A DNA stretch of 64,000 bases, taken from NCBI GenBank assembly GCA_016790225.1, contig JAEUOZ010000058.1, forward strand, positions 19,258 to 83,257, read 5' to 3'. Position numbers and translations under genes: made by a program. Under the pieces are notes generated by a model. It saw only the letters and a program-made list of their open reading frames with translations, made no database searches and was not told the origin of the DNA. This DNA is from Rubrivivax sp. Lineage in GTDB: Bacteria > Pseudomonadota > Gammaproteobacteria > Burkholderiales > Burkholderiaceae. Shown one piece after another: positions 4,520 through 47,936 of this stretch (positions are counted from its first letter, which is position 1; every line of letters starts with the position of its first letter).

Positions 4520-4551
4520 ATGGCCAAGGCCGGACATCAGGATCGAGGCGC

Positions 4552-19452: not shown

Positions 19453-19479
19453 GATCGGGCGCGCGCCCTTCGCCGCCCC

Positions 19480-21084: not shown

Positions 21085-21114
21085 CCCGCGATCAACTCAA
21101 TTCGGAGGTGGGAT

Positions 21115-21339: not shown

Positions 21340-21358
21340 GCGTGCCGGGAGGGCAGCG

Positions 21359-27914: not shown

Positions 27915-27918
27915 TGCC

Positions 27919-30370: not shown

Positions 30371-31402
30371 ATGTTCCAGTCCCTGCAGTCCCTGCGAACG
30401 GCGCTTCGACGCCACCTGCCGCACCGCGGGCCGCCGCCCGGCCTGCACCGCATCGAACCGGTGGAAGACGCCGGCTGGTACCGCGACGAAGCCGCCATCA
30501 TGGGCACGGCGATCACCGCGGAGCTGTGGGCCGACAGCCAGGAGCAGGGTGCCGAAGCCCTGGCCGCCGTGATGGGCGAGATGCGCCGCATCGACGAGGC
30601 CATGAGCCCGCACAAGAGCGGCTCGGAGCTGTCGCGCATCAACCGCGAGGCCTTTCACCGCTGGGTGCCGGTCTCGGGCGAGATGTTCGGCCTGCTGGAC
30701 CGTGCGCTGCAGTTTTCGGCGCTGACCGAGGGCGCCTTCGACATCAGCTTTGCCGCCGTCGGGCGCCTGTACGACTACCGCGCCGGCACGGCGCCGGACG
30801 AGGCCGCGCTGGCCGCGGCGCTGCCGGGTGTCGGCTGGCGCCATCTGGAGCTGGATGCCCTGATGCACGCGGTGCGCTTTCACCACCCGGCCACCTGCAT
30901 CGATCTGGGTGGCTTTGCCAAGGGCCATGCCGTGGATCGCGCCGCCACGGAGCTGAAGCGCCTGGGCATCGGCCATGCGTTTGTCAGTGCCGGCGGCGAC
31001 AGCCGCGTCATCGGTGACCGCCGCGGCCGCCCCTGGCAGCTGGGCGTGCGCGATCCGCGCCGCGAGGGCCAGCTGGTGGCGGTGCTGCCGCTGGAAGAGG
31101 TCTCGGTGTCGACCTCGGGCGACTACGAGCGCTGCTTCGAGCGCGACGGCGAGCGCGTCCACCACCTGCTGGATCCGGCCACCGGGCGACCGGCGCAGGG
31201 CGCACGCAGCGTCACCGTGCTGGCGCCCGACGGGCTGACGGCGGAGGCGCTGTCCAAGACCGCCTTTGTGCGCGGGCCGCAGGCCGGGCTGGCCTTGATC
31301 GAACGGGTGCCCGGCGTGGATGCCGTGATCGTCGATGCCCAGGGCGTGCTGCACCGCTCGTCCGGCCTGCTTCTGGACACCGCGTCGGAGCAACTGCCAT
31401 GA
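30371..31402 (+). CDS. apbE: FAD:protein FMN transferase ApbE
   Basis: Predicted 343 residues. The family transfers FMN from FAD to a Ser/Thr of exported or membrane target proteins. Conserved blocks are present: MGTAITAELW, RRIDEAMSPHKSGSELSRIN, TEGAFDISFAAVGRLYDYR, CIDLGGFAKGHAVDRA, VSAGGDSRVIG, VSVSTSGDYERCF and HHLLDPATGRPA. No cleavable signal peptide or lipobox is obvious, so its compartment is uncertain. It is the first gene of the redox operon; the four-base overlap with the next gene (ATGA) indicates coupling. I saw no clear flavinylation motif ([DE]xx[ST]GA[ST]) in neighbouring proteins by eye, so the acceptor is unknown. Confidence 0.9.
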   Translation: MFQSLQSLRTALRRHLPHRGPPPGLHRIEPVEDAGWYRDEAAIMGTAITAELWADSQEQGAEALAAVMGEMRRIDEAMSPHKSGSELSRINREAFHRWVPVSGEMFGLLDRALQFSALTEGAFDISFAAVGRLYDYRAGTAPDEAALAAALPGVGWRHLELDALMHAVRFHHPATCIDLGGFAKGHAVDRAATELKRLGIGHAFVSAGGDSRVIGDRRGRPWQLGVRDPRREGQLVAVLPLEEVSVSTSGDYERCFERDGERVHHLLDPATGRPAQGARSVTVLAPDGLTAEALSKTAFVRGPQAGLALIERVPGVDAVIVDAQGVLHRSSGLLLDTASEQLP

Positions 31403-34400
31403 CCGCCGATCCGCGTGAGACCCCGCCGCAAGGCGGCTGGCGGCCCGATGCCTCGCGCATCGTGCTGGTGCTCGTGGCCCTGCTGCTGGCCGCCGTGCTG
31501 CTGGGTTGCGGCGGCGCTGCCACCAGCCAGGGCGAAGGCCTGACGGTGACCGGCGAGGTGCCGCTGGTCTATGCCAAGCGCTCGAGTGCCGTGCGCATGA
31601 ACCCGACCAACGGCGCCCCCAGCGCGCCGGGCGGTGACCTGATGCTGCGCGAGAAGAGCTCGCCCAGTGCGCCGGAGCACAACCTCACCGCGGCCATCAC
31701 GCAAGGGCAGGGCGATGTCTCCGACCCCGAGGTGTCCTACGACGGCAAGAAGGTGGTCTTTGCGCTCCGGTGCCCGAGCGCCGGCACCGCGCAGATTGAC
31801 GGGGCGCCGGCCTGCACGGGGCGCTGGAACCTCTGGGAATACGACATGACGGGTGCGGCCTCGCTGGCCGCTGGCAAGCTGCGGCGCATCACCGCCAGCA
31901 CCGATGCCGACGATGTGGACCCGGTCTACCTGCCCGATGGTCGCGGCTTCGTCTTCAGCTCCAACCGGCAGGCCAAGTCGCGGCTGAACCAGGCCCTGGG
32001 CCGCGCCTACCTGGCGCTGGACGAATACGAGCGCGAGCGCGTCTTCAACCTGCACACCGTCAATCCCAGCGGCGGCAACCTGCAGCAGATCAGCTTCAAC
32101 CAGAGCCACGAGCGCAACCCGGTGATCCGCGCCAACGGCGACATCATGTTTGCGCGCTGGGAACACGTGGCCGACCGCAACCGCTTCGCCATCTTCCGCG
32201 CCAAGCCGGATGGAACGGACCTCTTCGTGCTGTACGGCGCACACAGCCCGGGCAACAGCTACCTGCACCCGCGGGAGATGGATCCGGCCGGTCGCTACAA
32301 GGGCTTCGTGGCGACCTCGCTGATGCCGCTGTCCGGCACGCACGAAGGCGGCTCGCTGGTCTTCATCGATGCCGCCAACTATTCAGAACAGGATACGCCG
32401 GCCAACAACCGCGTGCCGACCCAGGGTGGCAACACCGAGCCCACGGCGCAGACCCTGGAATCCGGCCGCGGACTGTCGCGCTGGGGCCGGGTCACCTCGC
32501 CCTACCCGCTGTGGGACGGCACGGACCGCGTGCTGGTGGCCTACCGCCCTTGCGAAGTGACGCGGGCCGGCGCGGTGGTGCCCTGCGCCAATCTCACGGC
32601 CGCCGAGCTGGCGCGCCTGTCGTCCGATCGTTCGATGGCGGCCGAGGCTGCCGACGAGTTGCAGGACAACGTGCCGCCCAACTATGCGATCTACCTGTTC
32701 GATCCGAAGGATCAGACCTGGCTGAACGTCGCGGCACCGCCCAGCGGCTTCATGCACGTCGATCCGGTGCCGCTGATCGCACGCGCCGAACCCAACGCGC
32801 CGGAACCCACCAATGTGGATGCCGCGCTCGCTGCCCAGGGAATGGCACTGATCGAGGTGCGCAGCGTCTTCGATACCGACGGTCTGGACCGCATGGGCCG
32901 CAGCATGATCGTGGCGGCCGATCTGCCGGCGGGCTGCAGCAGCGGCATCCCGCAGACAGCCCCGCTGGAGGCGCAGGACACGCGGGCCCGCGTGGCCGAT
33001 CTGCTGCGCCTGAAGGACCCGGCCGACGCGGCCTATGGCTGCAACCCCGTGCGCTTCGTGCGGGCGCTGCGCGGCATCCCGCCGCCTTCGGGCAGCACCG
33101 GCCTGCGCGCCGCCATCGGCGAGACCGATTTCGAGCAGCAGCAGATCCTGGGCTATGCGCCGATCGAACCCGACGGCTCGTTCAAGCTCAAGGTGCCGGC
33201 CGATGTGCCGCTGGCGCTGCAGGTGGTGGATGCGCAGGGCCGCGGCTTCCAGACGCACACCAACTGGATCCAGGTGCGCCCCGGCGAGCGCCGCACCTGC
33301 GATGGCTGCCACAGCCCGCGCCGCGGCGGCGCCATCAATTCCGGCTCCATCGTGGATACGCTGGCCGCGGGCATCCAGCGCATCCTGGCCACCGCGCGCC
33401 AGGGTGGCGAGACCATGGCCGGCACACGCACGCGGCTGGATCCGGCGCTGCTGAACCTCAGCCGCGACCCGCAGTACCTGGACGCCTGGGCCGACGCCGG
33501 CGTGATGGGCGTGACGCCGCGCACGCGGCTGAGCCTGGCCTACACCGGCAACGCCGATCCGGCGCAGGACCTGCGCACCGCGGTTCCGCTGAACGGCGTC
33601 ATCAACTACCCCGAGCACATCGCGCCGCTGTGGACGCGCGACCGCGGCGCGGCGACCTGCGTCAACTGCCACACGGGCAGTGCGCGCCTGGACCTGCGCA
33701 GCACGGTCGCCGGCACCGGCCGCCTGGTCTCGTACGAAGAGCTGCTGGTCGGCGATCCGCAGATCGATCCGGCCACCGGCCGCCCGGTGACCCGGCTGGA
33801 AGACGGCGTGCCCGTGGTGCAGCGCCTGCCCGCGCTGGTGGAGACGAGTTCCGGCGCGATGAACACGGCGGGCCAGGCGCGCAAGAGCCGGCTGACCGAG
33901 ATCCTGTTCGGGCAGTCGTTGCTGGCCTCGGCCGCCGCACGGGCTGCGCATCCGCAGCCACCGGCTGACGCTCCGGACCATGCGACGCTGCTCAACGTGG
34001 CCGAGAAGCGGCTGCTGGCCGAATGGATGGATCTCGGCGGGCAGTACTACAACGATCCCTTCACGCCGGGCGCCGGTGTGCGCAGCGTCACCGGCCTGAG
34101 CGAGGCGAGCTTTGCCAGCGAGGTGCTGCCGGTGCTGCGCGCCAACTGCGCCAGTGCCTGCCACCAGGCCGTGGGCACCAATGCCGCGCCCTCCGGCGCG
34201 AGCTTCCGCGAGAACCGCTTCGTGCTCACCGGCGACGCCACGGGCGACTACGGCGCCACGCTGTCGATGATCAACGACACCTGCAACCCGGGTGCCAATC
34301 CCCTGCTGCGCCGGCCTTCCACGGCGCCGCATCCGCAAGGGGCTGCCGGCGCCGCCGCGGTGCTGCCCGCAGGCAGCGCGGGCTACCAGGCCATTGCCGG

Positions 34401-34431
34401 GTGGATCTCGCGCGGCTGCGCCGGATCGTGA
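31399..34431 (+). CDS. HzsA-related lipoprotein with beta-propeller-like repeats and c-type haem motifs
   Basis: Predicted 1010 residues. A hydrophobic segment ending in the lipobox VLLGC (Cys37) marks an exported lipoprotein. Residues ~90-450 contain PD40/TolB-like propeller blades (e.g. PVYLPDGRGFVFSSNRQ; NPVIRANGDIMFARWE). The C-terminal half carries C634-DG-C-H638, C754-VN-C-H758 and C917-ASA-C-H922, that is, two standard CxxCH and one CX3CH motif. The overall plan resembles proteins named after the hydrazine synthase alpha subunit (HzsA), but the hydrazine synthase beta and gamma subunits and hydroxylamine dehydrogenase are absent, so hydrazine chemistry is not implied. A periplasmic electron-transfer or redox enzyme role is likely. 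Coupled to apbE by a four-base overlap. Confidence 0.83.
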   Translation: MTADPRETPPQGGWRPDASRIVLVLVALLLAAVLLGCGGAATSQGEGLTVTGEVPLVYAKRSSAVRMNPTNGAPSAPGGDLMLREKSSPSAPEHNLTAAITQGQGDVSDPEVSYDGKKVVFALRCPSAGTAQIDGAPACTGRWNLWEYDMTGAASLAAGKLRRITASTDADDVDPVYLPDGRGFVFSSNRQAKSRLNQALGRAYLALDEYERERVFNLHTVNPSGGNLQQISFNQSHERNPVIRANGDIMFARWEHVADRNRFAIFRAKPDGTDLFVLYGAHSPGNSYLHPREMDPAGRYKGFVATSLMPLSGTHEGGSLVFIDAANYSEQDTPANNRVPTQGGNTEPTAQTLESGRGLSRWGRVTSPYPLWDGTDRVLVAYRPCEVTRAGAVVPCANLTAAELARLSSDRSMAAEAADELQDNVPPNYAIYLFDPKDQTWLNVAAPPSGFMHVDPVPLIARAEPNAPEPTNVDAALAAQGMALIEVRSVFDTDGLDRMGRSMIVAADLPAGCSSGIPQTAPLEAQDTRARVADLLRLKDPADAAYGCNPVRFVRALRGIPPPSGSTGLRAAIGETDFEQQQILGYAPIEPDGSFKLKVPADVPLALQVVDAQGRGFQTHTNWIQVRPGERRTCDGCHSPRRGGAINSGSIVDTLAAGIQRILATARQGGETMAGTRTRLDPALLNLSRDPQYLDAWADAGVMGVTPRTRLSLAYTGNADPAQDLRTAVPLNGVINYPEHIAPLWTRDRGAATCVNCHTGSARLDLRSTVAGTGRLVSYEELLVGDPQIDPATGRPVTRLEDGVPVVQRLPALVETSSGAMNTAGQARKSRLTEILFGQSLLASAAARAAHPQPPADAPDHATLLNVAEKRLLAEWMDLGGQYYNDPFTPGAGVRSVTGLSEASFASEVLPVLRANCASACHQAVGTNAAPSGASFRENRFVLTGDATGDYGATLSMINDTCNPGANPLLRRPSTAPHPQGAAGAAAVLPAGSAGYQAIAGWISRGCAGS

Positions 34432-34439
34432 GGCCACCG

Positions 34440-35144
34440 ATGCGAACCCTGCCGGGACTCCTGAAAACCCTGCGCTGGAGCACTGCCGGCGATGCGGGGC
34501 TCGCGACCGGCCGTGCCCGGCGCCAGGCCCAGCGCCGGCTGCGCGCCGCCTGGCCGCGGCTGGCGCTGCCGCTGGCCCTGGTGACGCTGGTTGCCTGCGG
34601 CGGCGGCAGCAACCCCTTCGACAACCCGCCCGCCGTGGACAACCCGGTGATCCAGGGCGGACGCAAGCTGTCCTTCGCCTACTACCAGCGCTGCGTGCAC
34701 CCGGTCCTGCTGATGCAGCTGCCGGTGGTGCAGAACGGCGTGCGTTCGCTCAATACCTGCGCGGCGGCCGGCTGCCATGACGATGTCTCCGGCACGGGCG
34801 GCGCGCTGCGCGTGCGGCCGCAGGCAGCAGCGGTCAACCTGGCCGACACCACGCTGACGCCCGAAGCCATCCGCGGCACCGAGATGTACCGCAACTTCTA
34901 TTCGGCGCAGGGTGAATCGATTCCTGGCCAGCCGCTGTCCAGCCGATTGCTGCTCAAGCCGCTGCTGCAGAACATGCTGCACGGCGGCGGGCTGATCTTC
35001 GAGAACCTGGACGATCCCCAGCTCAAGCGCATCGCCTACTGGATCAACCGCCCGATGCCGGCCGGCCAGGATGAATTCAGCGCCGCGGCGGCTTCGATGT
35101 TCACGCCGGCGGACATCCACACAGGGGTCTGCAATGCAGACTGA
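34440..35144 (+). CDS. Exported lipoprotein with an unusual CX4CH haem-like motif
   Basis: Predicted 234 residues; the ATG lies eight bases after the upstream gene. A basic N-region precedes a hydrophobic stretch ending in lipobox TLVAC (Cys53). C107-AAAG-C-H113 (in NTCAAAGCHDDVSG) is a CX4CH arrangement, known as a non-standard covalent haem site in some cytochromes c. The protein continues with RLLLKPLLQNMLHGGG and IAYWINRP, which resemble small c-type cytochrome helices. Likely a partner of the HzsA-related protein. The stop overlaps the next gene by 11 bases. Confidence 0.75.
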   Translation: MRTLPGLLKTLRWSTAGDAGLATGRARRQAQRRLRAAWPRLALPLALVTLVACGGGSNPFDNPPAVDNPVIQGGRKLSFAYYQRCVHPVLLMQLPVVQNGVRSLNTCAAAGCHDDVSGTGGALRVRPQAAAVNLADTTLTPEAIRGTEMYRNFYSAQGESIPGQPLSSRLLLKPLLQNMLHGGGLIFENLDDPQLKRIAYWINRPMPAGQDEFSAAAASMFTPADIHTGVCNAD

Positions 35145-35979
35145 GCGGCGTCGTTGGGGACGTTCCGCCGCGCGGGCGGTGCTGCTGACGGCTGGCCTGC
35201 TGCCGGCCCTGGTCGGCCTGCGGCCCGCCGCGGCGCAGACCGCAGCCGCACCGTCCGCGCCGGGCGCGGCGTCCGTGACGACACCGTCCCAGCCGCCCGA
35301 TGCGGCATCCGAGCGCCTGGTGGTGGCCGATCCCTTCCTGGAGTTGCACACCGGGCCGGGCCGCGGCTATCCGGTCTTCCACGTGGCGGCCCGGGGCGAG
35401 TGGGTGGAAATCCGGCTGCGCCACACCGACTGGTTCCAGGTGCGCACCGACAAGGGCATCGAAGGCTGGGTGCAGCGCGCGCAGCTGCAGGGCACGCTCA
35501 CGGCCGCCGGCGCGCCCAAGACCTTTCGCGATCTGCTGCTGGACGACTACCTCGCACGCCGGCTGGAGCTCGGCGCCGCCTGGGGGCGCTTCAAGAGCGA
35601 GCCGCTGCTGAAGGTGTTCGTCAGCTACCGCCTGACCGAAGCCTTCCATGTCGAGGGCACGCTGGGCCAGGTGCAGGGCGTCTTCTCGGGCACCGACTAC
35701 TGGCACCTGAATCTGCACACCGAGCCCTGGTCGGACCGGCGCCTCTCGCCCAGCTTCGGCATCGGCTTCGGGCGCTTCCGCAACCTGCCCAACGCCAGCC
35801 TCGTAGGCACCCAGGTGACCGACACACCCATGGCCCAGATGACGCTGGGGCTGCGCTGGCACCTGAGCGACCGCTTCATCCTGCGTGCGGACTACGGGCT
35901 GCACACGGCCTACCTGGACAACCGGCGCACGGGCGAGTACCGCTCGCTCTCGACGGGCCTGTCCTTCTTCTTCCGCTGA
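35134..35979 (+). CDS. SH3-like domain plus outer-membrane barrel protein
   Basis: Predicted 281 residues from the ATG within the end of the previous gene; signal peptide AVLLTAGLLPALVGLRPAAAQ. Residues ~60-125 form a bacterial SH3-like domain (FLELHTGPGRGYPVFHVAARG; WFQVRTDKGIEGWVQRAQL). Residues ~150-281 form an eight-strand-like barrel of the outer-membrane beta-barrel family, ending SLSTGLSFFFR. SH3 modules often bind peptidoglycan, so it may tether the operon's machinery between wall and outer membrane. Confidence 0.8.
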   Translation: MQTERRRWGRSAARAVLLTAGLLPALVGLRPAAAQTAAAPSAPGAASVTTPSQPPDAASERLVVADPFLELHTGPGRGYPVFHVAARGEWVEIRLRHTDWFQVRTDKGIEGWVQRAQLQGTLTAAGAPKTFRDLLLDDYLARRLELGAAWGRFKSEPLLKVFVSYRLTEAFHVEGTLGQVQGVFSGTDYWHLNLHTEPWSDRRLSPSFGIGFGRFRNLPNASLVGTQVTDTPMAQMTLGLRWHLSDRFILRADYGLHTAYLDNRRTGEYRSLSTGLSFFFR

Positions 35980-36004
35980 CAACGACAAACCTGGAGTGAA
36001 CGCC

Positions 36005-36739
36005 TTGAATCCCCAATCCGACACCGCCCTCGATCCCGGGCCCGTGCTGCCGCCAGGCAACGCAAGGCCGCACCTGAGCGGCAACGCGCTCGCCTGCGCC
36101 GGCCTGCTGGTGCTGCTGGCCGCCGCCGGGCCGGTGGCCTGGGGACAGACAGCCCCTGCGCCGGGCACGCCGGCCACCACCACCTCCGAGGCCACCATCG
36201 TGCCGCAGGTGCAGCGCCGCGAGCTGAAGCTGCCACGCATCCCGTCGAAGGACATCGAGGTCGGCGTGCTGGCGGGCGTCTACAACGCGCAGAACTTCGG
36301 TGCCAGCGGGCTGGCCGGCCTGCGCCTGGGCTACCACCTGACCGAGGACTTCTTCGTCGAGGGCGAGTTCGGCCGCACCACGGTGAGCGACGATTCCTTC
36401 CGCGCCATCCTGCCCGGCGGCGTGATCCCCGCCACCCAGGGCGCGCTGTCCTACGGCACGCTGTCGCTGGGCTGGAACTTCCTGCCGGGCGAAGTCTTCC
36501 TGGGCAGCCGCCAGGCGCGGCAATCGCAGTTCTACCTGCTGGGCGGCATCGGCAGCACCGATTTTGTCGGCCAGAAGCGCCAGACCATCAACCTGGGCGT
36601 GGGTCTGAAGGTCTTTGCCACGCAGCGGCTGGCCCTGCGGGTGGACATGCGCGATCACCTCTACACGCTCGATCTGCTGGGCCAGCGGGAGCGCACGCAC
36701 AACCTGCAGCTCGGCGCCGGGCTGTCGTACTTCTTCTGA
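36005..36739 (+). CDS. Outer-membrane beta-barrel family protein
   Basis: Predicted 244 residues. I chose the TTG at 36005 because CTGGAG lies eight bases upstream; a GTG at 35996 in the same frame is an alternative. After a hydrophobic export segment (ALACAGLLVLLAAAGPVAWGQ) and a Pro/Thr linker, the protein is an amphipathic barrel: IEVGVLAGVYNAQNFG, LRLGYHLTEDFFVEGEFG, LQLGAGLSYFF at the C-terminus. The terminal Phe is typical of outer-membrane insertion. It resembles the barrel half of its upstream neighbour, suggesting duplication within the operon. Confidence 0.8.
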   Translation: MNPQSDTALDPGPVLPPGNARPHLSGNALACAGLLVLLAAAGPVAWGQTAPAPGTPATTTSEATIVPQVQRRELKLPRIPSKDIEVGVLAGVYNAQNFGASGLAGLRLGYHLTEDFFVEGEFGRTTVSDDSFRAILPGGVIPATQGALSYGTLSLGWNFLPGEVFLGSRQARQSQFYLLGGIGSTDFVGQKRQTINLGVGLKVFATQRLALRVDMRDHLYTLDLLGQRERTHNLQLGAGLSYFF

Positions 36740-36752
36740 GGCGGGCGCGGCC

Positions 36753-37253
36753 ATGTGGATGCCTCTTCTGACCCCGCTGGCGATGGCCGGCCTGCTGCTG
36801 ATCGTTTCGGCCGCGGCGCAGGCCCGCCTGACGCTGGGCGACATGCCGGACTTCACGCTGCGCCAGCTCAACGGCCCCAACCTTCGACTGCAGGAGCAGC
36901 GCGGCCAGGTGGTGATGGTGAACTTCTGGGCCACCTGGTGCGGCCCCTGCCGGCAGGAACTGCCGCACCTGAACCGCCTGCAGCAGACCTACGCGCGCAG
37001 CGGCTTCGTGATGCTGGGCGTGAATGTCGACGATGACCCGGGCAAGGCCACGGCGCTGGCCACGCAGCTGGGCCTGCGCTTTCCGGTGCTCTTCGACACC
37101 AGCAAGCGTGTGATCGGCCAGTGGAACCTGAGCGCCATGCCCAGCACCGTGCTGATCGATCGCCAGGGCCGCGTGCGACATCTTCACCGCGGCTACCGGC
37201 AGGGCCTGGAGCAGACCTATGACGAGCAGATCCGCGGTCTGCTGAAGGAGTGA
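36753..37253 (+). CDS. TlpA/ResA-like thioredoxin-fold protein
   Basis: Predicted 166 residues with an N-terminal hydrophobic export or anchor segment (PLAMAGLLLIVSAAAQA). The active site is FWATWCGPCRQELPHLNRL, with Cys63 and Cys66, and the cis-Pro loop AMPSTVLIDRQG follows. TlpA-type proteins reduce periplasmic disulfides, often to keep haem-binding CxxCH cysteines ready for cytochrome assembly. This fits the haem-motif proteins encoded just upstream. It is followed by DUF4266 and DUF3570 genes, a recurring trio with ApbE. Confidence 0.9.
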   Translation: MWMPLLTPLAMAGLLLIVSAAAQARLTLGDMPDFTLRQLNGPNLRLQEQRGQVVMVNFWATWCGPCRQELPHLNRLQQTYARSGFVMLGVNVDDDPGKATALATQLGLRFPVLFDTSKRVIGQWNLSAMPSTVLIDRQGRVRHLHRGYRQGLEQTYDEQIRGLLKE

Positions 37254-37258
37254 GGACC

Positions 37259-37489
37259 ATGCGCAAGACCTCGATGGCGGCCTGTGTCGTCCTGCTGCTG
37301 GCCACGCTGCTGGGCGGCTGTGCCGTGCAGCCCTGGGTGAAGCCCTATGAACGCGAGCGCCTGGCCGATCCGGTGATGCGTTTCTCGCGCGATGCGCTGT
37401 CGGAGCGCCACCGCGAGCATGTGCATGCGGTGCGCGAAGGCGCACGCGGCGCCACCGGGGTGCAGGGGAGCGGCTGTGGCTGCAACTGA
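37259..37489 (+). CDS. DUF4266 small lipoprotein
   Basis: Predicted 76 residues from the ATG at 37259, preceded by AAGGAG. Signal peptide with lipobox LLGGC (Cys21). The mature part is short, with KPYERERLADPVM and a C-terminus GVQGSGCGCN containing two Cys; this Gly/Cys end is the hallmark of DUF4266. Such proteins occur between TlpA-like and DUF3570 genes. Their role is unknown. The C-terminal Cys pair could be a redox or metal site or a target of the adjacent TlpA-like protein; that is speculative. Confidence 0.83.
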   Translation: MRKTSMAACVVLLLATLLGGCAVQPWVKPYERERLADPVMRFSRDALSERHREHVHAVREGARGATGVQGSGCGCN

Positions 37490-38723: not shown

Positions 38724-38724
38724 A

Positions 38725-39387: not shown

Positions 39388-41363
39388 GGCCTGTCTCCGG
39401 GGCCTGCGGGTCTCGCCTCAGGCGCCTGAGTGCACTGGCGCTGGCGCTGGCCTGCCTGCCGCTTGGCGCCGCGGCGCAGGGCAGCGGCCCGGCGCCGGCC
39501 ACTGGGGCCCATCCGCCTCTGGCCGCACGGGTGACTGCCGCACCGGCCGCCGACGAAGGCTTCAAGCCGGTGGCCGTGAAGAACCCGTATTGGGGCACGG
39601 CGCTGTTCGAGGTCTACCAGGACCAGACCTTTGCCGCGCTCACCGGCCTGATGGCCTCGCAGCACTTCGGTCGCGTGCCGCTGCATGCGGACGAGGCCGA
39701 AGTGCTGCGTGGTGGCCTGCTGCTGGACTACGGGCTGCACACCCAGGCCGGCGAGGTCTTTGCCCGGCTGATCGAGCGCGGCGCGCCGCCTTCGGTGCAG
39801 GACCGCGCCTGGTACCACCTGGCCAGGCTGCGCCACTGGAAAGGCCTGCCGGCCGAGGCCGAGTCGGCGCTGGCGCGCATCGGCCCGGCGCTGCCGCGCG
39901 AGCTGCAGGATCCCAAGCTGCTGCTGCAGGCGCAGCTGCAGATGGCCCGTGCCGATTACGCTGCCGCGGCGCAGACGCTCGCGGCCTTGCCACCCGGCAG
40001 CCCGCTGGCCCCCTATGGCCGCTTCAACCTGGGCGTGGCGCGCATCAAGTCGGGCGATGCCGCGGGCGGCAGCGCCGATCTGCTGGCCGTGGCCACCGGG
40101 ACAGCGCTGAACGACGACGCCCGCAGCCTGCGCGACAAGGCCAATCTCGCGCTGGGCTTTGCAGCGTTGCAGGCCGGCCAGGCCGAGCCTGCGCTGCAGG
40201 CGCTGGAGCGCGTGCGCCTGCAGGGGCCGCAGTCCCACGCGGCGCTGCTGGGCTTCGGCTGGGCCTCGCTGCTGAAGAAGGAGCCGCGGCGCTCGCTGGT
40301 GGCGTTCCAGGAACTCTCGGCCCGGCCGCTGCGTGACGCGCCGGTGCTGGAGTCGCAGATCGCGCAGGCCTATGCACTGGCCGAGGCCGGTGCACCCGGC
40401 TCGGCCTTGCGCGCCTACGAGCAGGCCATCGAGCTCTTTGGCCAGGAAGAGCGCCGGCTGGACGAGGCCGTGGCGCGCGCGCGCAGCGGCGCCTTGATCG
40501 AACAGCTGCTGGGTCTGGACGCGCCGCAGCGCCTGGGCGTGGCGGCCCCGCTGTCGCTGGACGCGACGCTGCCGCAGGCCGGCCTGCTGGCCCCGTTGCT
40601 CGCGCAGCATGGCCTGCAGGAGGCGCTGAAGAACCTGCGCGACCTGCGCTTCCTGTCGGGCAACCTGCAGCGCTGGTCGGCCGATCTGGCGCAGTTCGAC
40701 GACATGCTGGCGCACCGCCGTCAGGGCTTCGAGCAGCGCCTGCCGCAGGTGCAGGGCGGCGCGCAGGCGGGGGGGCGCGACCTCGCCACCCTGCAGGAGA
40801 GACTGAGGACGATCGTTGGCGATCTGGCGCAGGCCGAAGCCGCAGCAGACGGCCAGGCCCATGCGACCGAGCGCGAGCGGGCGCTGCGCGAGCGGCTGGC
40901 CGCCGCCCGCGCGGCCCTGCCGCAGCTCGACGCGGCCGAGCAGGAGTCTGCGCGCGAGCGCTTGCGTCTGGCCGAAGGTGCGCTGATCTGGCATTGGGCA
41001 CGCGAATACCCGCTGCGCCAGGCCGCCGCGCAGCAGGAACTCGTGCGGCTGCAGCAGGGCATGGCGCAGGCAGACGCCAGAACGCAGGCGCTGCAGCAGG
41101 CCCAGCGCGAAGAGCCCCTGCGTCTGGACGCCCTGGGCGCCCGCATTGCCGAGATCCGCGGCCGGCTGGCGCTGCTGGCGCCGCGCGTGGCGGCGCTCTC
41201 GGCCGAGCAGCAGGGGCAGGCACAGGACATGGCCGCCGCCGAACTGCTGCGCCAGAAGGAACGCCTGGCCGGCTATGTGGCGCAGGCGCGCTGGGCGGTG
41301 GCCCAACTGCATGACCAGGCCCGCGTCGCGCGGGCACCGGGAGCGGCTGATGTCGCACGTTGA
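39384..41363 (+). CDS. Large exported TPR-like helical protein
   Basis: Predicted 659 residues from the GTG at 39384 (AAGGTG six bases upstream; an in-frame GTG two codons earlier is possible). Signal peptide LSALALALACLPLGAAAQG. The rest is almost entirely helical: TPR-like pairs (DRAWYHLARLRHWKGLPAEA; YGRFNLGVARIKSGDAAGG) from ~100 to 350, then long coiled-coil segments after ~430 rich in Glu/Arg/Ala (LRERLAAARAALPQLDAAEQ). Likely periplasmic scaffold. It overlaps the next TPR gene by 14 bases. Confidence 0.75.
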   Translation: MRPVSGACGSRLRRLSALALALACLPLGAAAQGSGPAPATGAHPPLAARVTAAPAADEGFKPVAVKNPYWGTALFEVYQDQTFAALTGLMASQHFGRVPLHADEAEVLRGGLLLDYGLHTQAGEVFARLIERGAPPSVQDRAWYHLARLRHWKGLPAEAESALARIGPALPRELQDPKLLLQAQLQMARADYAAAAQTLAALPPGSPLAPYGRFNLGVARIKSGDAAGGSADLLAVATGTALNDDARSLRDKANLALGFAALQAGQAEPALQALERVRLQGPQSHAALLGFGWASLLKKEPRRSLVAFQELSARPLRDAPVLESQIAQAYALAEAGAPGSALRAYEQAIELFGQEERRLDEAVARARSGALIEQLLGLDAPQRLGVAAPLSLDATLPQAGLLAPLLAQHGLQEALKNLRDLRFLSGNLQRWSADLAQFDDMLAHRRQGFEQRLPQVQGGAQAGGRDLATLQERLRTIVGDLAQAEAAADGQAHATERERALRERLAAARAALPQLDAAEQESARERLRLAEGALIWHWAREYPLRQAAAQQELVRLQQGMAQADARTQALQQAQREEPLRLDALGARIAEIRGRLALLAPRVAALSAEQQGQAQDMAAAELLRQKERLAGYVAQARWAVAQLHDQARVARAPGAADVAR

Positions 41364-44300
41364 AGCTCGAATCCTGCGTGGCGGTGCGGGCGCCTGCCTG
41401 CCGGGGCTGGCGCTGCAGGCCTTGCCGCGCCAGCTGCTGCTGGCCGGGCTGCTGGTGGCCGTCGTCGGCCTGGCCGGCTGTGCCAGCCGCGGCAAGGCCG
41501 TCGCCGAGGAACCCCCGACGCTGAAGGCCCTGGCCAGCCGCCCGGCGCCCGTGCCGGCCGATGCCGGCATCCGCACCAGCGAGGCGCAGGCCAAGGCCGC
41601 CTACGAGGCCTTCCTGGCGGCCAACCCGCGTGCGCCGCAGCGTGCGCAAGCGCTGCGCCGGCTGGGCGATCTGGAAATGGATGTCGCGCAGCGCAAGCTG
41701 GAGGAAGACAGCGCCGCCACGCCGGATTTCCGCGCCGCGATCCAGCGCTACGAAACCGTGCTCAAGGCCCATCCCCAGGATCCGGCGAACGACCGCGTGC
41801 TCTACCAGCTGGCGCGTGCTCATGAACAGGGCGGCCAGCTGGACGCCGCGCTGAAGACGCTGGACCGCCTGGTGGCCCAGTATCCGCAGACGGCGCACCG
41901 CGACGAGGCGCAGTTCCGCCGCGGCGAACTGCTCTTCACCAACCGGGCCTATGCGCAGGCCGAGGCCGCCTTCGCGCAAGTCCTGGCGCGCGAGGCCCGC
42001 ACACCGTTTCACGAGCGCGCGCTGTACATGCAGGGCTGGTCCCAGTTCAAGCAGGCACGCCTGGACGAAGGCCTGCGCAGCTTCCTGGGCGTGCTCGATC
42101 TCAAGCTCGAAGGGCAGGGCGACGAGCCGCTGGATCAGCTGCCCGGCATGACACGCGCCGATCGCGAGCTGGTCGACGACACCTTCCGCGTGGCCAGCCT
42201 CAGCCTGATGCAGCTGCAGGGCGCGGGCTCGATCCCGCCGCTGATCGATACCCCTGCGCGCCAGGGCTACGAGTTCCGCCTGTACCAGCACCTGGGCGAG
42301 CTGTATCTCGGCCAGGAACGGGTGAAGGACGCGGCCGAGACGCTGGGCGCCTTCGCGCGCCGCCATCCCCGCCACGCCCAGGCGCCCCGCCTGCAGGCGC
42401 GTGTGATCGACATCTACGCCGGCAGCGGCTTTGCACAGCTGGCGCTGGAGGCCAAGCGAGATTATGTGGAGCGTTATGGGCCGGCCAGCGACTTCCGCCG
42501 CGCCAACCCTGAGGGCTGGGCCCAGGCCCAGCCGCTGCTGCGCCAGCACCTGATCGAACTGGCCAGCCACCATCACGCGCTCTACCAGAAGCGGCGCGAC
42601 GAGCCCGATGCGCTGGAGGCCGAGCGCTGGTACCGCCAGTGGCTGGCCGCCTTCGGCGGCGATGCGCAGGCGCCGCACAACAGCTTCCTGCTGGGCGAGC
42701 TGCTGTTCGAAGCACGCCGCTGGGCTGCTGCCGAGCAGGCCTACGAGCAGGCGGCGTATGGATTCGCCCCGCACGCGCGCAGCGCCGATGCCGGCTACGG
42801 AGCGCTGCTGGCGCTGGAGCAGCAGGCCCGGGCCCTCGGCCCGGAGGCTGCGCCGCGCCGGGCCCTGCGCCAGCGCCAGGCCCAGGCCGCGCAGCGCTTC
42901 GCTCAGGCCTTTGCACAGGATGCCCGCACCGGTCCGGTGCTGGCCGAGGCCGCGGATCAGCTCTTCGCGCTGGGTGATGGCGCGGCCGCCGCGGCCCTGG
43001 CAGACCAGGTGCTGGCGCTTCGGCCGCCGGCCCCGGATGCGGCGCTGCGCACGGCGCTGACCGTCCTGGCGCACCGCGCCTTCGAGCAGAAGGCCTACGC
43101 CGAGGCGGAGCAGGCCTATGCGCGCCTGCTCGCGCTGCCGCGACCAGGCGCGCCCACGCCGGGCGCGATCACGCCGCAGGAGCTGCAGGAGCGTCTGGCC
43201 GCGGCGATCTACCAGCAGGGTGACGCGGCGCGGGCGGCCGGCCGCCTGCAGGAGGCCGCCGGCCACTTTGCCCGCGTGGAAGCGGCGGCGCCCGCGTCCC
43301 GCGTGCGGGCGAATGCGCAGTTCGACCAGGCGGCCACGCAGATCGCACTGAAGGACTGGGAATCGGCGTCGCGCACGCTGGAGGCCTTCCGCCAGCAGCA
43401 TGCCGGACATGCCCTGGCGCCGCAGGTGGCTCCCCGGCTGGCCGCGGTCTATCTGGAGCTGAACCGGCCGGCCGCGGCAGCGGCGGAATTCGAGCGTTGG
43501 GCCTCGGCCGAAGGCACGGCCGAGGATGTGGCACGCGCTGCCCGCTGGCAGGCTGCGCAGCTGCAGGCCCAGGCCGGCCCGCCGGCACAGGCGGCGCGCG
43601 CCTGGGAGCACTATCTGCGCCGCCACCCGCAGCCCCTGGAGCCCGCCGTCGAGGCCCGCTGGCGCCTGGTGCAGCTCGCCCAGGCTGAAGGCCAGGCGGC
43701 CCGCGCGCTGCAATGGGCACGCGAACTGCGCCAGGCGGAAGAGCAGGGTGCGGAGCAGCGCACGCCGCGCAGCCGCGCGTTTGCGGCCAGGGCGCAGCTT
43801 GCGCTGGCCGCGCCGCTGCTGCAGGCCTATCGCGAGGTGCGCCTGGTGGAGCCGCTGGCGCGACAGCTCAAGCTGAAGAAGGCGCGCATGGAAGCCGTGC
43901 TGCAGGTCTACGCCACGGCCTCGGAATCCGGCGCGGCCGAAGTGGTGACCGAGGCCACCTTCAAGACCGCCGCGCTGTACCAGGACTTCGGCCAGGCGCT
44001 GCTGGCCGCGCCGCGCCCCAAGGGCCTGAAGAAGGCCGAGGCGGAGCAGTACGCCGTGATGCTGGAAGAGCAGGCCTTTCCCTTCGAGGAAAGAGCCGCC
44101 GAGCTGCACGAGCTCAACGCACGCCGCACCGCGCAGGGCCTGTGGGACGACGCGATCCGCGACAGCCTGCAGGCGCTCGCCCAGCTGCGCCCGGCGCGCT
44201 GGGGCCGTGCAGAGCGCAGCGAGCCGTCGCTGCCGGGGGCGGAGCTGGCGGTGCTGGAAAAGGCCGTGGCTGCCGGCCCGGCTGCCGCGGAGCTCTGGAA

Positions 44301-44580
44301 CCAGCTGGGTGTGGCCTACCGCCGCGCCGGCCGCTTTGATGACGCGCGACGCGCTTACGAAAAGGCGATGACGGCGCGCGCCGGCTACGCCACACCGGTG
44401 CTCAACCTGGCCATCCTGGACGACCTCTATCTGCGCCGCAGCGCGCAGGCGCTGGCCGGCTACGAGCGCTACCAGGCCCTGCTGGGCGCACCCGATGCAC
44501 AGGTGAGCCGTTGGCAGGCCGAGCTGAAGACCCGCAAGCCCGATGCGCCGGCCCTGGCCGCCGCGGGAGGAAAGCCGTGA
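41350..44580 (+). CDS. Very large TPR lipoprotein
   Basis: Predicted 1076 residues; lipobox VVGLAGC gives lipidation at Cys44. The protein is a solenoid of TPR or Sel1-like helix pairs, e.g. VLYQLARAHEQGGQLDAALK, DEAQFRRGELLFTNRAYAQA and, near the C-terminus, AELWNQLGVAYRRAGRFDDA followed by RRAYEKAMTARAGYATPVLN. It probably extends through the periplasm as an interaction platform. Gene order (TPR genes, ExbB/ExbD pair, AgmX-like protein) is that of TPR-associated energy-transducing motors. Confidence 0.83.
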   Translation: MSHVEARILRGGAGACLPGLALQALPRQLLLAGLLVAVVGLAGCASRGKAVAEEPPTLKALASRPAPVPADAGIRTSEAQAKAAYEAFLAANPRAPQRAQALRRLGDLEMDVAQRKLEEDSAATPDFRAAIQRYETVLKAHPQDPANDRVLYQLARAHEQGGQLDAALKTLDRLVAQYPQTAHRDEAQFRRGELLFTNRAYAQAEAAFAQVLAREARTPFHERALYMQGWSQFKQARLDEGLRSFLGVLDLKLEGQGDEPLDQLPGMTRADRELVDDTFRVASLSLMQLQGAGSIPPLIDTPARQGYEFRLYQHLGELYLGQERVKDAAETLGAFARRHPRHAQAPRLQARVIDIYAGSGFAQLALEAKRDYVERYGPASDFRRANPEGWAQAQPLLRQHLIELASHHHALYQKRRDEPDALEAERWYRQWLAAFGGDAQAPHNSFLLGELLFEARRWAAAEQAYEQAAYGFAPHARSADAGYGALLALEQQARALGPEAAPRRALRQRQAQAAQRFAQAFAQDARTGPVLAEAADQLFALGDGAAAAALADQVLALRPPAPDAALRTALTVLAHRAFEQKAYAEAEQAYARLLALPRPGAPTPGAITPQELQERLAAAIYQQGDAARAAGRLQEAAGHFARVEAAAPASRVRANAQFDQAATQIALKDWESASRTLEAFRQQHAGHALAPQVAPRLAAVYLELNRPAAAAAEFERWASAEGTAEDVARAARWQAAQLQAQAGPPAQAARAWEHYLRRHPQPLEPAVEARWRLVQLAQAEGQAARALQWARELRQAEEQGAEQRTPRSRAFAARAQLALAAPLLQAYREVRLVEPLARQLKLKKARMEAVLQVYATASESGAAEVVTEATFKTAALYQDFGQALLAAPRPKGLKKAEAEQYAVMLEEQAFPFEERAAELHELNARRTAQGLWDDAIRDSLQALAQLRPARWGRAERSEPSLPGAELAVLEKAVAAGPAAAELWNQLGVAYRRAGRFDDARRAYEKAMTARAGYATPVLNLAILDDLYLRRSAQALAGYERYQALLGAPDAQVSRWQAELKTRKPDAPALAAAGGKP

Positions 44581-45014
44581 AACCCGAGAAGAGCCCTGGA
44601 GTCTGGATGGCCCGCATGACCTGCGGCCTGGCATTGCTGATGCCCGGCCTGAGCCCGGCGCAGGACCGCGCCGAGATCGATCGCACCCGCATCGTGGGCA
44701 ACCGTGAGCTGCCCAAGGTGATCTACATCGTGCCCTGGAAGAGACCGCTGCCCGATGAACTGATCGGCAAGCCTCTGGCGAGCGTGCTCGACGAGGTGCT
44801 GGCGCCGGTGGACCGCGAGGTGCACCGCCGGCAGGTCGCCTACCACGCGAGGGTCCTGCCGCCCGGCCTGTCGCCCTTGAGCAGCCCGCTGGCGGACGCG
44901 GCCACCGGACCAGCGGCGCCATCCGCCGCAGCACCGGCCCGCGGGCCATCCGCCGCGTCCCCTGCTCCCAGCCCCTCCGTCAACCCCACCCCTCCGCAGG
45001 AGAAAAGACCATGA
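44577..45014 (+). CDS. Small exported protein, function unknown
   Basis: Predicted 145 residues from a GTG overlapping the upstream stop, with GGGAGG just before it. A short hydrophobic segment (MTCGLALLMPGLSPAQD) suggests export. The core RTRIVGNRELPKVIYIVPWK resembles the short conserved block of small proteins encoded next to ExbB/ExbD/AgmX sets, and the C-terminal ~50 residues are Pro/Ala/Ser linker. It overlaps the ExbB-like gene by four bases. No function assignable. Confidence 0.65.
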   Translation: MKPEKSPGVWMARMTCGLALLMPGLSPAQDRAEIDRTRIVGNRELPKVIYIVPWKRPLPDELIGKPLASVLDEVLAPVDREVHRRQVAYHARVLPPGLSPLSSPLADAATGPAAPSAAAPARGPSAASPAPSPSVNPTPPQEKRP

Positions 45015-45778
45015 GCGCCCTCGACACCGCCGTCAAGTTCTTCCAGGACAGCGGCCTGTTCATCTACCCCAGCCTTCTGATCATGTCCATCGGCCTGGCC
45101 ATCGCCATCGAGCGCTTCATCTTCCTGCAGCGCGCGCGCTCGCAGAACAGCCAGCTGTGGGCCCAGCTGCACCCGCTGCTGAAGAGCGGCCGCTTCAAGG
45201 AGGCGCACCAGGCGAGCAGCCAGTCCGACGCCGCGGTCGGCAAGATCGTCACGCACGGCCTGGACCGCATGCAGAGCCCGGGCCGCCGCGAGGACATCGA
45301 CGCCGCGATGGAGGAGGGCATGATGCAGATCGTGCCGCGCCTGGAGAAGCGCACCCACTACATCGCCACCTTCGCCAACGTCATCACGCTGGTCGGCCTG
45401 CTGGGCACCATCATCGGCCTGATCAAGGGCTTCACGGCCGTCGCCGCGGTCAACCCGGCGGAGAAGGCCGAGATGCTCTCGGCCTCGATCTCCATCGCCA
45501 TGAACAACACGGCCTTCGCGCTGATGGTGGCGATCCCCTTCCTGCTGATCCACGCCTACCTGCAGGCGCGCACCAGCGAGATCGTGGACGGACTGGAGGC
45601 AGCCAAGATCAGCTTTCTCAACCTGGTGCAGCGGCTGCGCGCCGAGAACTCCGCCAGCCGCAGCGCGGGGGGCAGCGCGAGCGCCAGCGCGTCGGCAAGC
45701 GAATCCGGTGGCCACGGCTTTGCGCCCACGCAAGCGCTGGTGACGCCGGCAGGCCTTGCGGCCGTGCGGGGTGCCTGA
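45011..45778 (+). CDS. MotA/TolQ/ExbB proton-channel protein
   Basis: Predicted 255 residues with three membrane segments: LFIYPSLLIMSIGLAIAIE, ANVITLVGLLGTIIGLIKGF and TAFALMVAIPFLLIHAYLQ. The second and third contain the conserved Gly/Thr pattern of the ion-channel core (LVGLLGTIIGL, NNTAFALMVAIP). It couples proton flow to movement of the ExbD/TonB-like partners encoded immediately downstream. A Ser/Ala-rich tail follows the last helix. Part of the redox operon by overlap and spacing. Confidence 0.92.
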   Translation: MSALDTAVKFFQDSGLFIYPSLLIMSIGLAIAIERFIFLQRARSQNSQLWAQLHPLLKSGRFKEAHQASSQSDAAVGKIVTHGLDRMQSPGRREDIDAAMEEGMMQIVPRLEKRTHYIATFANVITLVGLLGTIIGLIKGFTAVAAVNPAEKAEMLSASISIAMNNTAFALMVAIPFLLIHAYLQARTSEIVDGLEAAKISFLNLVQRLRAENSASRSAGGSASASASASESGGHGFAPTQALVTPAGLAAVRGA

Positions 45779-46276
45779 GTGGCCGCGCGACGTCGCCTGC
45801 GGCGCACCGCGGCCGGGCTGGAGGTCACGGCCTTCATCAACCTGATCGTGGTGCTGGTGCCCTTCCTGCTGTCGACCACCGTGTTCACGCGCATGGCCGT
45901 GCTGGATCTGTCGCTACCGGCCCAAAGCAGCGGCGTCGAGCAGCTGAAGGTCGATCAGCTGCAGCTGGAGCTGGTGATCCGGCCGGAGCGCATCGATGTG
46001 GCCGATCGGATCGGCGGGCTGATCCGCAGCATCCCCGCCGTCGATGGCCGGCATGACTATGCCCAGGTCACGGCGCTGATGGGCGAGCTCAAGCAGCGCT
46101 TCCCGCAGCACAGCAGCGCCACCTTGCTGGCCGAGCCGCAGACCCCTTACGAGCAGGTCGTGCAGCTGATGGATGCGGTGCGTGCGCGGGTGCAGGCGCA
46201 GGGTGCGCAGCTGATCCGCACCGAGCTGTTTCCGGACATCGCCATCGGCGATGCGCCGCTGGAGAAAAGGACCTGA
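45779..46276 (+). CDS. ExbD/TolR-like protein lacking the membrane aspartate
   Basis: Predicted 165 residues; GTG start directly abuts the ExbB stop. One N-terminal membrane segment, TAFINLIVVLVPFLLSTTVF, is followed by a periplasmic domain. Aligning the helix end FLLS with the downstream paralogue places Asn21 where ExbD/TolR proteins normally have the essential proton-carrying Asp. The periplasmic region includes LELVIRPERIDVADRIGGLI. It probably forms a mixed dimer with the second ExbD-like protein, in which the Asp is retained. Confidence 0.85.
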   Translation: MAARRRLRRTAAGLEVTAFINLIVVLVPFLLSTTVFTRMAVLDLSLPAQSSGVEQLKVDQLQLELVIRPERIDVADRIGGLIRSIPAVDGRHDYAQVTALMGELKQRFPQHSSATLLAEPQTPYEQVVQLMDAVRARVQAQGAQLIRTELFPDIAIGDAPLEKRT

Positions 46277-46281
46277 GAGCC

Positions 46282-46797
46282 ATGAGCGGCAAGCCCTCTT
46301 CCCTGGACAAGCGCGCCGAGCGGCGCAGCAGAAATCAGCAGCACGTGGACATGAACCTCGTGGCGCTGATCGACATCTTCACCATCCTCATCTTCTTCCT
46401 GCTGTCCAGCGCCGCAGGCGTGGAACTGCTGAACTCGCCCAAGACCGTCAAGCTGCCCGAATCCACGGCCGAGAAGGCCCCGCGCGAAACGGTGGTGGTG
46501 GTCGTCGCCGGTGACGACATCCTGGTCGACGGACGGCGCGTGGCCACCGTGAGTGCGGCGCTGGCCGAGGCAGGTGACGAGATCGCCGGCCTGAAGACCG
46601 AGCTGCAGGGCGTGGCCAGCCGCCGCGTGGTGAACGCCGCGGCGAATGCCGATGTGCGGGCCGCAAGCCGCGCGGTCACGCTGATGGCGGACAAGGACAT
46701 CCCGTATCGCCTGCTGCGCAAGCTGATGGTGACCTGCTCCCAGGCCGAGTTTGCCGATGTCTCCTTTGCGGTCCGCCAGCAGCTGAAGGTGTCGTGA
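46282..46797 (+). CDS. ExbD/TolR-like protein with intact aspartate
   Basis: Predicted 171 residues; starts five bases after the first ExbD-like gene. The membrane helix MNLVALIDIFTILIFFLLSS contains Asp31, the residue that carries protons in ExbD/TolR. The periplasmic part includes VVVVVAGDDILVDGRRVATV and the helical end DKDIPYRLLRKLMVTCSQA, typical of ExbD. Overlaps the next gene's start by one base (TGATG). Confidence 0.9.
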   Translation: MSGKPSSLDKRAERRSRNQQHVDMNLVALIDIFTILIFFLLSSAAGVELLNSPKTVKLPESTAEKAPRETVVVVVAGDDILVDGRRVATVSAALAEAGDEIAGLKTELQGVASRRVVNAAANADVRAASRAVTLMADKDIPYRLLRKLMVTCSQAEFADVSFAVRQQLKVS

Positions 46798-47936
46798 TGA
46801 GTGCTGCTTCCTTTGCCCTGCCGCGTGCCGGGGTGTCGTTTCGGGTGGCGGTGCTGCCCTGGTCGCTCTCGCCGGACGACCGGCTGCGCTTTCGGCGCAT
46901 CCTGCAGCGCGTGCTGCTGGCCTGCGCCGTCTTCGCGGTCGTGATGCCCTGGCTGCCGGTTCGGCCGCCGGATCGGGCCCAGCCGGCCGAGTTGCCGCTG
47001 CCGGTGGCGCGCCTGATGATCCAGCGCGCCGAGCAACCGGCTGCCCCGCCGCCGCGCAAGGCGCCGCCGACACCCCCGTCGACCGCGAAGGCCGAGCTGC
47101 CACCCAGGCCCGACGCGACACCTCAAGCGCCCAGACCCGCGGCGCAGAAGCCGCAGCCCCGCGAAGGCCTGGTGGCCGAGGCGCGCAATCCACGCCCCAA
47201 CCGCCCGCCCGGGGAGGACCTGAATGCGGTACGCCAGCGCGCCACCGGCGTCGGCCTGCTTGCCGCGAAGGACCAGCTCGCCGCGCTGCACGCGGCTCCG
47301 GTGGCGGTGCAGTTGAACCAGGCCATCAAGCCCGGCCCCGGCGTGGGCACCGGCAGCGGCTCCGGCGTGGGTGCCGGAACGGAAGCCGGCCTTCCGGTGC
47401 GCGCCTTGATCACCTCCAGCGCCACACAGGGCAGCGGGGGCATCAACACGGCGGCGTTCAGCCGCAACAGTGGTGGCGGAGGACTGGCTGGGCGTTCGAC
47501 GACCCTGGTCGAAGGTGCGATCGGCGGCGGCGGTGGCGGCGGCCCAGGCGGCGGTGCCGGCACGGGCCGGGGCGGCGAAGGCACGGGCGGGCCGGGCGGT
47601 TCGGCGCAGAAGGGTGGATCGCTGCAAAAGGGCGGCGGCGGCAAGGCCTCGCGCTCCATCGAGGAGATCCGTCTGGTCTTCGAGCGCCACAAGGGCGCGA
47701 TCTATGCGCTCTACCAGCGTGCGCTGCGCGAAGACGCCTCGCTGCAGGGCAAGGTGGTGCTGGAACTGAAGATCACGCCCGGCGGCGAAGTCAGCTCGGC
47801 GCGCCTGGTCTCCAGCGAACTGAAGACGCCGGAGCTGGAAGCCAAGCTGCTGGCCCGCATCCGCCAGTTCGACTTTGGCGCCAAGGATGTGGAGACGATG
47901 GTCGTCACCTGGCCGGTGGACTTCCTGCCCTCCTGA
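46797..47936 (+). CDS. AgmX/PglI C-terminal-domain protein (TonB-like energy transducer)
   Basis: Predicted 379 residues. One membrane segment near the N-terminus (RVLLACAVFAVVMPWLP) is followed by a Pro/Lys/Arg-rich spanning region, then a Gly-rich stretch (~residues 240-280), and finally residues ~285-379 forming an AgmX/PglI-type TonB-like domain: SIEEIRLVFERHKGAIYALY, GKVVLELKITPGGEVSSARL, VTWPVDFLPS. This architecture passes motor energy across the periplasm to an outer-membrane partner; the barrels and haem lipoproteins upstream are candidates. Last gene of the operon, followed by a strong hairpin. Confidence 0.88.
   Translation: MSAASFALPRAGVSFRVAVLPWSLSPDDRLRFRRILQRVLLACAVFAVVMPWLPVRPPDRAQPAELPLPVARLMIQRAEQPAAPPPRKAPPTPPSTAKAELPPRPDATPQAPRPAAQKPQPREGLVAEARNPRPNRPPGEDLNAVRQRATGVGLLAAKDQLAALHAAPVAVQLNQAIKPGPGVGTGSGSGVGAGTEAGLPVRALITSSATQGSGGINTAAFSRNSGGGGLAGRSTTLVEGAIGGGGGGGPGGGAGTGRGGEGTGGPGGSAQKGGSLQKGGGGKASRSIEEIRLVFERHKGAIYALYQRALREDASLQGKVVLELKITPGGEVSSARLVSSELKTPELEAKLLARIRQFDFGAKDVETMVVTWPVDFLPS

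Follow-up and report, generated by a model that had tools for sequence, protein, structure and literature searches.

Gene organization of the locus

The window analyzed here, a 64,000-nucleotide stretch of Rubrivivax sp. DNA (contig JAEUOZ010000058.1), contains sixteen genes that fill positions 30371–47936, all on the plus strand, and that bring genes for flavin, haem and thiol proteins together with genes for a proton-driven motor. An earlier, sequence-only reading had placed sixteen genes with overlaps and tiny gaps on one strand in this interval, and its count and coordinates were right. Where neighboring genes overlap they do so by 4–14 bases, and the widest gap measures 25 bases (35979/36005). 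A coding-composition filter passed most of the sixteen open reading frames and missed short or overlapping ones, and promoter- or terminator-like sites were not more frequent inside the block than in shuffled sequence. We refer to the flavin, haem and thiol genes a1–a8 (30371–38723) as half A and to the motor genes b9–b16 (38725–47936) as half B.

Half A begins with a1 (30371–31402), encoding ApbE, a flavin adenine dinucleotide:protein flavin mononucleotide (FMN) transferase (PF02424, 265.7 bits). It is followed by a2 (31399–34431), an HzsA-like lipoprotein with a PD40 propeller repeat, an HZS_alpha domain (PF18582, 68.4 bits; 5c2v_A, E value 3.9e-10) and three c-type haem motifs, C634-C637-H638, C754-C757-H758 and C917-C921-H922, the residues of which were invariant in 20 aligned rows. 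The lipoprotein a3 (34440–35144) has a single CxxxxCH haem-type motif. Two candidate barrels come next, a4 (35134–35979), with an SH3 domain (SH3_3, 33.6 bits) and a weak OMP_myx_plus match of 25.6 bits, below the cut-off, and a5 (36005–36739; TTG start, with GTG at 35996 also possible), an outer-membrane barrel of the OMP_myx_plus family (TIGR04565, 146.1 bits, cut-off 60). The half closes with a6 (36753–37253), a TlpA/ResA-like periplasmic thioredoxin with the motif WATWCGPC that scores as Redoxin (93.7 bits) and AhpC-TSA (93.0 bits; PF13899 reached 15.7 bits, below its cut-off), the small DUF4266 lipoprotein a7 (37259–37489; PF14086, 79.8 bits), which has a C-terminal GCGCN, and the DUF3570 protein a8 (37476–38723; PF12094, 135.8 bits), a predicted 16-strand outer-membrane barrel.

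In half B, b9 (38725–39387) encodes an exported protein without a known family or a Foldseek match at E ≤0.001; it is conserved, with a median identity of 70% to its beta homologues, is modeled as a helix plus a beta-sandwich, and served as our marker for the motor module. The exported TPR-type protein b10 (39384–41363; 660 amino acids), which matched TPR designs in the PDB, is GltC-like by length and position, b11 (41350–44580) is a large TPR lipoprotein (PF14559, PF13432), and b12 (44577–45014) is a small exported protein with a Pro/Ala-rich tail and no family match. The remaining four genes encode an ExbB/TolQ/AglR-like proton channel (b13, 45011–45778; PF01618, MotA_ExbB, 88.6 bits), the ExbD1/AglQ-like b14 (45779–46276; PF02472, 47.1 bits), the ExbD2/AglS-like b15 (46282–46797; PF02472, 53.9 bits) and a Pro- and Gly-rich, GltG/AgmX/TonB-like putative force transducer (b16, 46794–47936), which matched the AgmX/PglI C-terminal domain NF033768 at 62.4 bits (cut-off 40) and TIGR01352 at 31.1 bits (cut-off 27.1).

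The sixteen genes recur as a unit

With an alignment of 15 DUF3570 proteins as the sole seed, we fetched 79 genome loci. The locus L068 and five gamma loci were set aside, leaving 73 for analysis. Almost all of these had titles naming Burkholderiales or Betaproteobacteria, and three named only Pseudomonadota. With DUF3570 as the one criterion of selection, nothing in the sampling forced the remaining fifteen genes to be conserved. A gene was tallied only where its expected place fell inside the contig. The gene order recurred in the 73 loci. The strand never differed, and no gene was missing from more than one scorable locus: a1 was present in 60/61, a2 in 61/62, a3 in 66/67, a4 in 67/67, a5 in 69/69, a6 in 69/69, a7 in 72/72 and a8 in 70/70 for half A, and b9 in 71/71, b10 in 70/70, b11 in 58/59, b12 in 57/58, b13 in 53/54, b14 in 52/53, b15 in 51/52 and b16 in 23/23 for half B. 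The only misses inside contigs came from two loci, L059 (a1–a3) and L001 (b11–b15), and reflect either an assembly break or a true loss. The flanks were not shared, as the most widespread flanking family occurred in at most 9 of 62 loci and none was common with the window, and DUF3570 was found on just two plasmids, both from Hymenobacter and below 60% identity. The sixteen genes are a conserved, packed unit with unshared flanks. The block recurs as a whole, and the families and the conserved order support the description, in the sequence-only reading, of one unit combining redox genes with a proton-driven motor.

The redox features of half A were retained among the beta loci. Three C-x2/3-C-H motifs were present in 60/60 a2 homologues longer than 850 amino acids (two of the 62 homologues were shorter and excluded), the CxxxxCH of a3 in 61/61 homologues, W-x-x-W-C-x-x-C of a6 in 72/72, and a GCGCN or GCGCK tail of a7 in 71/72. 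A C-terminal F was found in 63 of the 69 a4 homologues tallied by last residue; the a4 protein of the window ends in FFFR. For DUF3570, flavinylation by ApbE has been demonstrated experimentally in Chlorobium luteolum (PMC8238504), and the acceptor candidates in a8 are S128 (SNAS) and S136 (TTAS). The motif [ST]xA[ST] occurred twice in the a8 homologues of 72/72 beta loci, with the acceptor Ser conserved, and the DUF3570 protein of L068 has SGAS at the first site position, from which we conclude that the register of the sites is right and that the Gly is not kept.

The a8 model (predicted local distance difference test score, pLDDT, 76.8) has 16 strands. Compared with the PDB by Foldseek, it matched 352 chains at E ≤0.001, and the best 50 were all barrels or barrel machinery; template modeling scores (TM-scores) were low, ≤0.47 by query length among the best 50 of 352, for porins and receptors alike. 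The loops after odd strands include ones of 13, 22 and 25 residues, and no loop after an even strand exceeds 9. Since the long loops follow the odd strands, the loop 126–138 carrying the flavin sites probably lies outside the cell.

The anatomy of the motor module was taken from hidden Markov model maps covering 40 stretches that we fetched in addition to six earlier loci. As far as its genes were detected, b9–b16 had a single order in 37/37 loci holding b9. T133 and T167 of b13 and Asp31 of b15 were kept in 41/41 rows. Where ExbD proteins usually have their membrane Asp, b14 has Asn21 in 41/41 beta rows, and among 28 other rows Asn was found in 25, Asp in L163 and Ser in L183, with L164 unreadable. 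This Asn/Asp split suggests that the ExbD pair may be an obligate heterodimeric axle in which one subunit only has the usual proton-binding Asp. In the window itself, b14 with Asn21 and b15 with Asp31 would make such a one-Asp axle possible. In a b11 tree built quickly from 41 rows, redox-linked and unlinked copies interleaved, with 6 label changes against 12.8 expected when shuffled.

The two halves are linked across the class

We searched 369 genomes of one GTDB class, with a Methylibium genome as the center, using b9, DUF4266 and HZS_alpha, which gave 81, 90 and 57 positive genomes, respectively. At strong-match cut-offs of 1e-50 for b9 and 1e-12 for HZS_alpha, 47 genomes had both markers, 7 had b9 only, 4 had HZS_alpha only and 311 had neither; without these cut-offs the corresponding numbers were 50, 31, 7 and 281. 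Some level of b9 match was found in 50 of the 51 strong-HZS_alpha genomes, with G331 as the exception, and DUF4266 was present in 52 of the 54 strong-b9 genomes. DUF2271, another ApbE substrate that we used as a small specificity control, was above its cut-off in 13/369 genomes and shared b9 in 4 of them, with 2.9 expected; it was not associated with b9.

The layout of the halves differed among genomes. In the 53 strong HZS_alpha rows, b9 was located downstream on the same strand at <12 kb in 26, divergently at <12 kb in 10, 19–26 kb upstream in 2 and on another contig in 13, and the 2 rows without b9 were both from G331. Furthermore, ApbE was directly beside the motor module, either in front of it (L156, L158, L160, L165) or behind it (L147), in five split loci where most of the redox genes lie divergently, far away or on a separate contig, and a TlpA/thioredoxin-like gene was beside the module in L162, L163 and L175. 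These moves of ApbE and thioredoxin to the motor side tie the flavin enzyme to the motor. In one further genome (G294, L173 9.8–11.9 kb), ApbE adjoins a lone b9-like gene, and no other module gene was detected in the 20 kb read. Judged by sequence and arrangement, the two halves very probably form one functional system. The sequence-only reading had named a lack of co-occurrence elsewhere among the findings that would refute it; instead, the halves co-occur and are linked in several arrangements.

The gamma loci have an extended form. Between or beside the halves they carry an extra block consisting of a Tat-type protein that we named c7, a LamG lipoprotein in which CxxCH occurs twice and a one-CxxCH protein with a weak DUF1585 match (L147 12205–17489; L149 13003–18900; L158 14776–19898; L165 10169–12334). 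This block is not among the sixteen genes of the window. The c7 protein was present in 49/369 genomes, 42 of which belong to the 51 strong-HZS_alpha genomes, and it had no Pfam match at 0.001, no NCBIfam match at 0.01 and no PDB sequence match. In the gamma loci a3 is often missing, and in most of them the C-terminal TPR part of b11 is a separate gene, which scored 53.2 bits for GltE (NF033758), below the cut-off of 225 and among general TPR matches.

Elsewhere in the window, a long, secreted-looking open reading frame immediately 5′ of ApbE (27835–30069) had no Pfam or NCBIfam match and no counterpart in the 79 loci. At 839–7137, a gene for a DUF2126 amidoligase/transglutaminase protein precedes one for a circularly permuted ATP-grasp/Alpha-E protein, and adjoining genes for an SPFH protein, a DUF4178 protein and a spermidine-synthase-like protein lie at 18391–22960.

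Comparison with known systems

The ExbB/ExbD/ExbD/GltG-like and TPR block resembles the Agl/Glt ‘core complex of unknown function’ described for Gamma- and Betaproteobacteria by Luciano et al. 2011 (PMC3169522), which likewise has one ExbB-like and two ExbD-like proteins, large exported TPR proteins and a GltG/AgmX-type transducer within a single region, together with one additional gene. That paper names Saccharophagus degradans as a carrier in which genes are duplicated, and a Saccharophagus genome in our set (L160) holds the motor module. The arrangement is also alike in that gltB-gltA, which encode barrels, precede gltC in Myxococcus and the barrels precede b10 here. By length, TPRs and gene order, b10 and b11 are candidate counterparts of GltC, GltD and GltE. 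In contrast to the core complex, our block is fused or linked to a flavin/haem module, which the accessible text of PMC3169522 does not mention for the core, and b16 is without an FHA domain; its GltG equivalog score was 25.8 bits in the window and 58.3 in L170, against a cut-off of 650. AglQ and AglS are both reported to carry the membrane Asp (PMC9389320), whereas here b14 has Asn and b15 has Asp. An AglR-like channel and two ExbD-type subunits lie in one cluster, as in Agl/Glt systems; since the Asn of b14 departs from one AglRQS feature, we regard the motor as working like that of Agl/Glt and do not file it as AglRQS. All components of the ExbB/ExbD/ExbD/TonB-like motor named in the sequence-only reading are present, although they are nearer to Agl/Glt than to a plain Ton system. 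The profile of the gliding adhesin CglB (NF033757) matched in 0/6 genomes and was silent in 14 control genomes too, and that of TraA (NF033759) gave no match anywhere, controls included.

Half A resembles the flavinylation cluster of PMC8238504, in which, according to its accessible text, ApbE, DUF3570, DUF4266 and a thioredoxin are likewise present and adjacent and DUF4266 ends in CXC; the acceptor Ser positions are kept. It differs by its SNAS and TTAS sites, by the absence of DsbD, and by its additions, namely the motor, two more barrels and the haem lipoproteins. The main text of that paper does not term DUF3570 a barrel (‘barrel’ occurs 0 times). PMC8238504 was the only open-access paper found on DUF3570 or DUF4266, and in the open-access literature we found no paper joining the flavin/haem half and the motor half. 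Each half has been published separately; what is new is that they are linked. The system had been called a candidate for an undescribed one, which holds for the full combination in that literature and not for its halves, each of which is published (PMC8238504, PMC3169522).

Many HZS_alpha relatives are reported to have no other proven function and to lack the key residues (PMC12758564). The best solved relative of a2 is the alpha subunit of hydrazine synthase (5c2v), which has the same HZS_alpha middle domain with CxxCH; a2 differs in having three haem motifs and in being a lipoprotein. The Tyr at chain position 564 of 5c2v aligns with Arg641 of a2, which is invariant in 20 rows. We take this Tyr to be Tyr591, the ligand at haem alpha-I. 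No families of the beta or gamma type of hydrazine synthase were found among the sixteen proteins. Because the ligand residue is changed and the operon is without the partner subunits, a2 was ruled out as a hydrazine synthase.

Ton systems share with this locus an energized transducer, and MtrCAB-type porin-cytochrome conduits share an outer-membrane barrel with redox carriers. The MtrCAB type pairs a large barrel with decahaem cytochromes, in contrast to the 16 strands and few haems here. Family searches of the operon proteins found no TonB-dependent receptor.

Discussion

Here, we describe a conserved sixteen-gene unit and lean towards the view that it encodes one envelope-spanning machine, in which a motor driven by proton-motive force would act through b16 and the TPR proteins on flavin-, thiol- and haem-bearing barrels of the outer membrane. 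What was observed is the gene set and its conserved order, the haem motifs, the motor residues, the modeled DUF3570 barrel, and the fact that the halves co-occur and are repeatedly linked; that the machine does redox work dependent on proton-motive force, as the sequence-only reading proposed, is inferred. ExbB and the ExbD1/ExbD2 pair would use proton-motive force to pull or turn the b16 rod, and b10, b11, b9 and b12 would carry the force across the periplasm to the barrels a4, a5 and DUF3570. DUF3570 would receive two FMN from ApbE, a thiol relay may run through TlpA and the CXC-bearing lipoprotein DUF4266, and the HzsA-like lipoprotein with its three haems and the lipoprotein with one may be further outer-membrane redox carriers. 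The likely purpose would be redox chemistry at the cell surface: the periplasm would exchange electrons with an acceptor or donor outside the cell, and the motor would open, assemble or move the outer-membrane redox complex. More tentatively, this may be a new kind of machine, in which an Agl/Glt-type motor mechanically drives a flavin/haem outer-membrane device; the 16-strand barrel would bear its covalent flavins on a loop facing outward, the ExbD pair would have one Asp, and this device would be the client of the orphan Agl/Glt core in many Gamma- and Betaproteobacteria.

Several points weigh against this machine. The motor module occurred without a strong redox-gene match in 14 fetched loci (L167–L170, L172, L176–L180, L183–L186; L183 is a short contig), and 31 of the 81 b9 genomes had no HZS_alpha. 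The strong-match cut-offs were set after the hits had been seen, and the Fisher values for co-occurrence, though tiny, ignore kinship; the differing layouts that keep both halves are more telling than these values. The two published [ST]GA[ST] sites are not matched in the window, where SNAS and TTAS differ at the second position. The a8 loop 126–138 has a pLDDT <50, and its side is argued from loop parity alone. An inner-membrane electron donor such as DsbD is not among the sixteen operon genes.

The 14 loci without a redox match indicate that the motor module is portable and may serve more than one kind of client. The neighbors of these redox-free modules vary by locus and point to possible other clients; L186, for instance, has a molybdopterin oxidoreductase set and L176 a YfaZ-like barrel.

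Among the alternatives, we consider it unlikely that the locus serves energized uptake, that is, a Ton-like, redox-dependent import in which a metal or a redox-active compound would be reduced or stripped by the flavin/haem module at the surface and then taken in through one of the barrels. ExbB/ExbD and a TonB-family C-terminal domain are present, and a ferrous iron transporter was reported in 25 DUF3570 clusters, for which iron assimilation was proposed (PMC8238504), but the operon contains neither a TonB-dependent receptor nor a metal transporter, and the low TM-scores of DUF3570 (≤0.47 among the best 50 rows) matched porins and receptors equally. Somewhat less likely again is a transport or display machine comparable to those that serve gliding (Glt) and the spore coat (Nfs) in Myxococcus, in which the motor would move or export a lipoprotein or polymer of the surface, with the thiol and flavin parts maturing the cargo rather than respiring. 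The core architecture is the same as in Agl/Glt, and the LamG lipoprotein with two haem motifs and the Tat-type protein added in gamma loci (42/51 strong-HZS_alpha genomes) would suit such a cargo system, whereas the haem and flavin carriers are more numerous than the plain maturation factors. Two independent operons, neighboring by chance or co-travelling, are extremely improbable even though each half is known alone and motor copies without redox genes exist, since both halves are kept in fused, divergent and distant layouts and ApbE shifts to the motor side, findings on which a chance joining was rejected.

The role of the Agl/Glt core in non-gliding bacteria was left open by Luciano et al. 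(PMC3169522). The linkage described here gives this core a defined partner set, and its association with flavin/haem outer-membrane proteins suggests a use for the motor in such bacteria. DUF3570, already known to be flavinylated from experiment, gains a neighboring motor and a predicted outer-membrane location, and the Asn/Asp split of the ExbD pair would bear on the question of the AglQ-AglS heterodimer left open in PMC9389320. If the proposed coupling of the motor to the redox proteins is true, electron transfer would be linked to mechanical work on the outer membrane, a connection that would lie outside the models of Ton, Tol and gliding systems as far as the accessible sources describe them.

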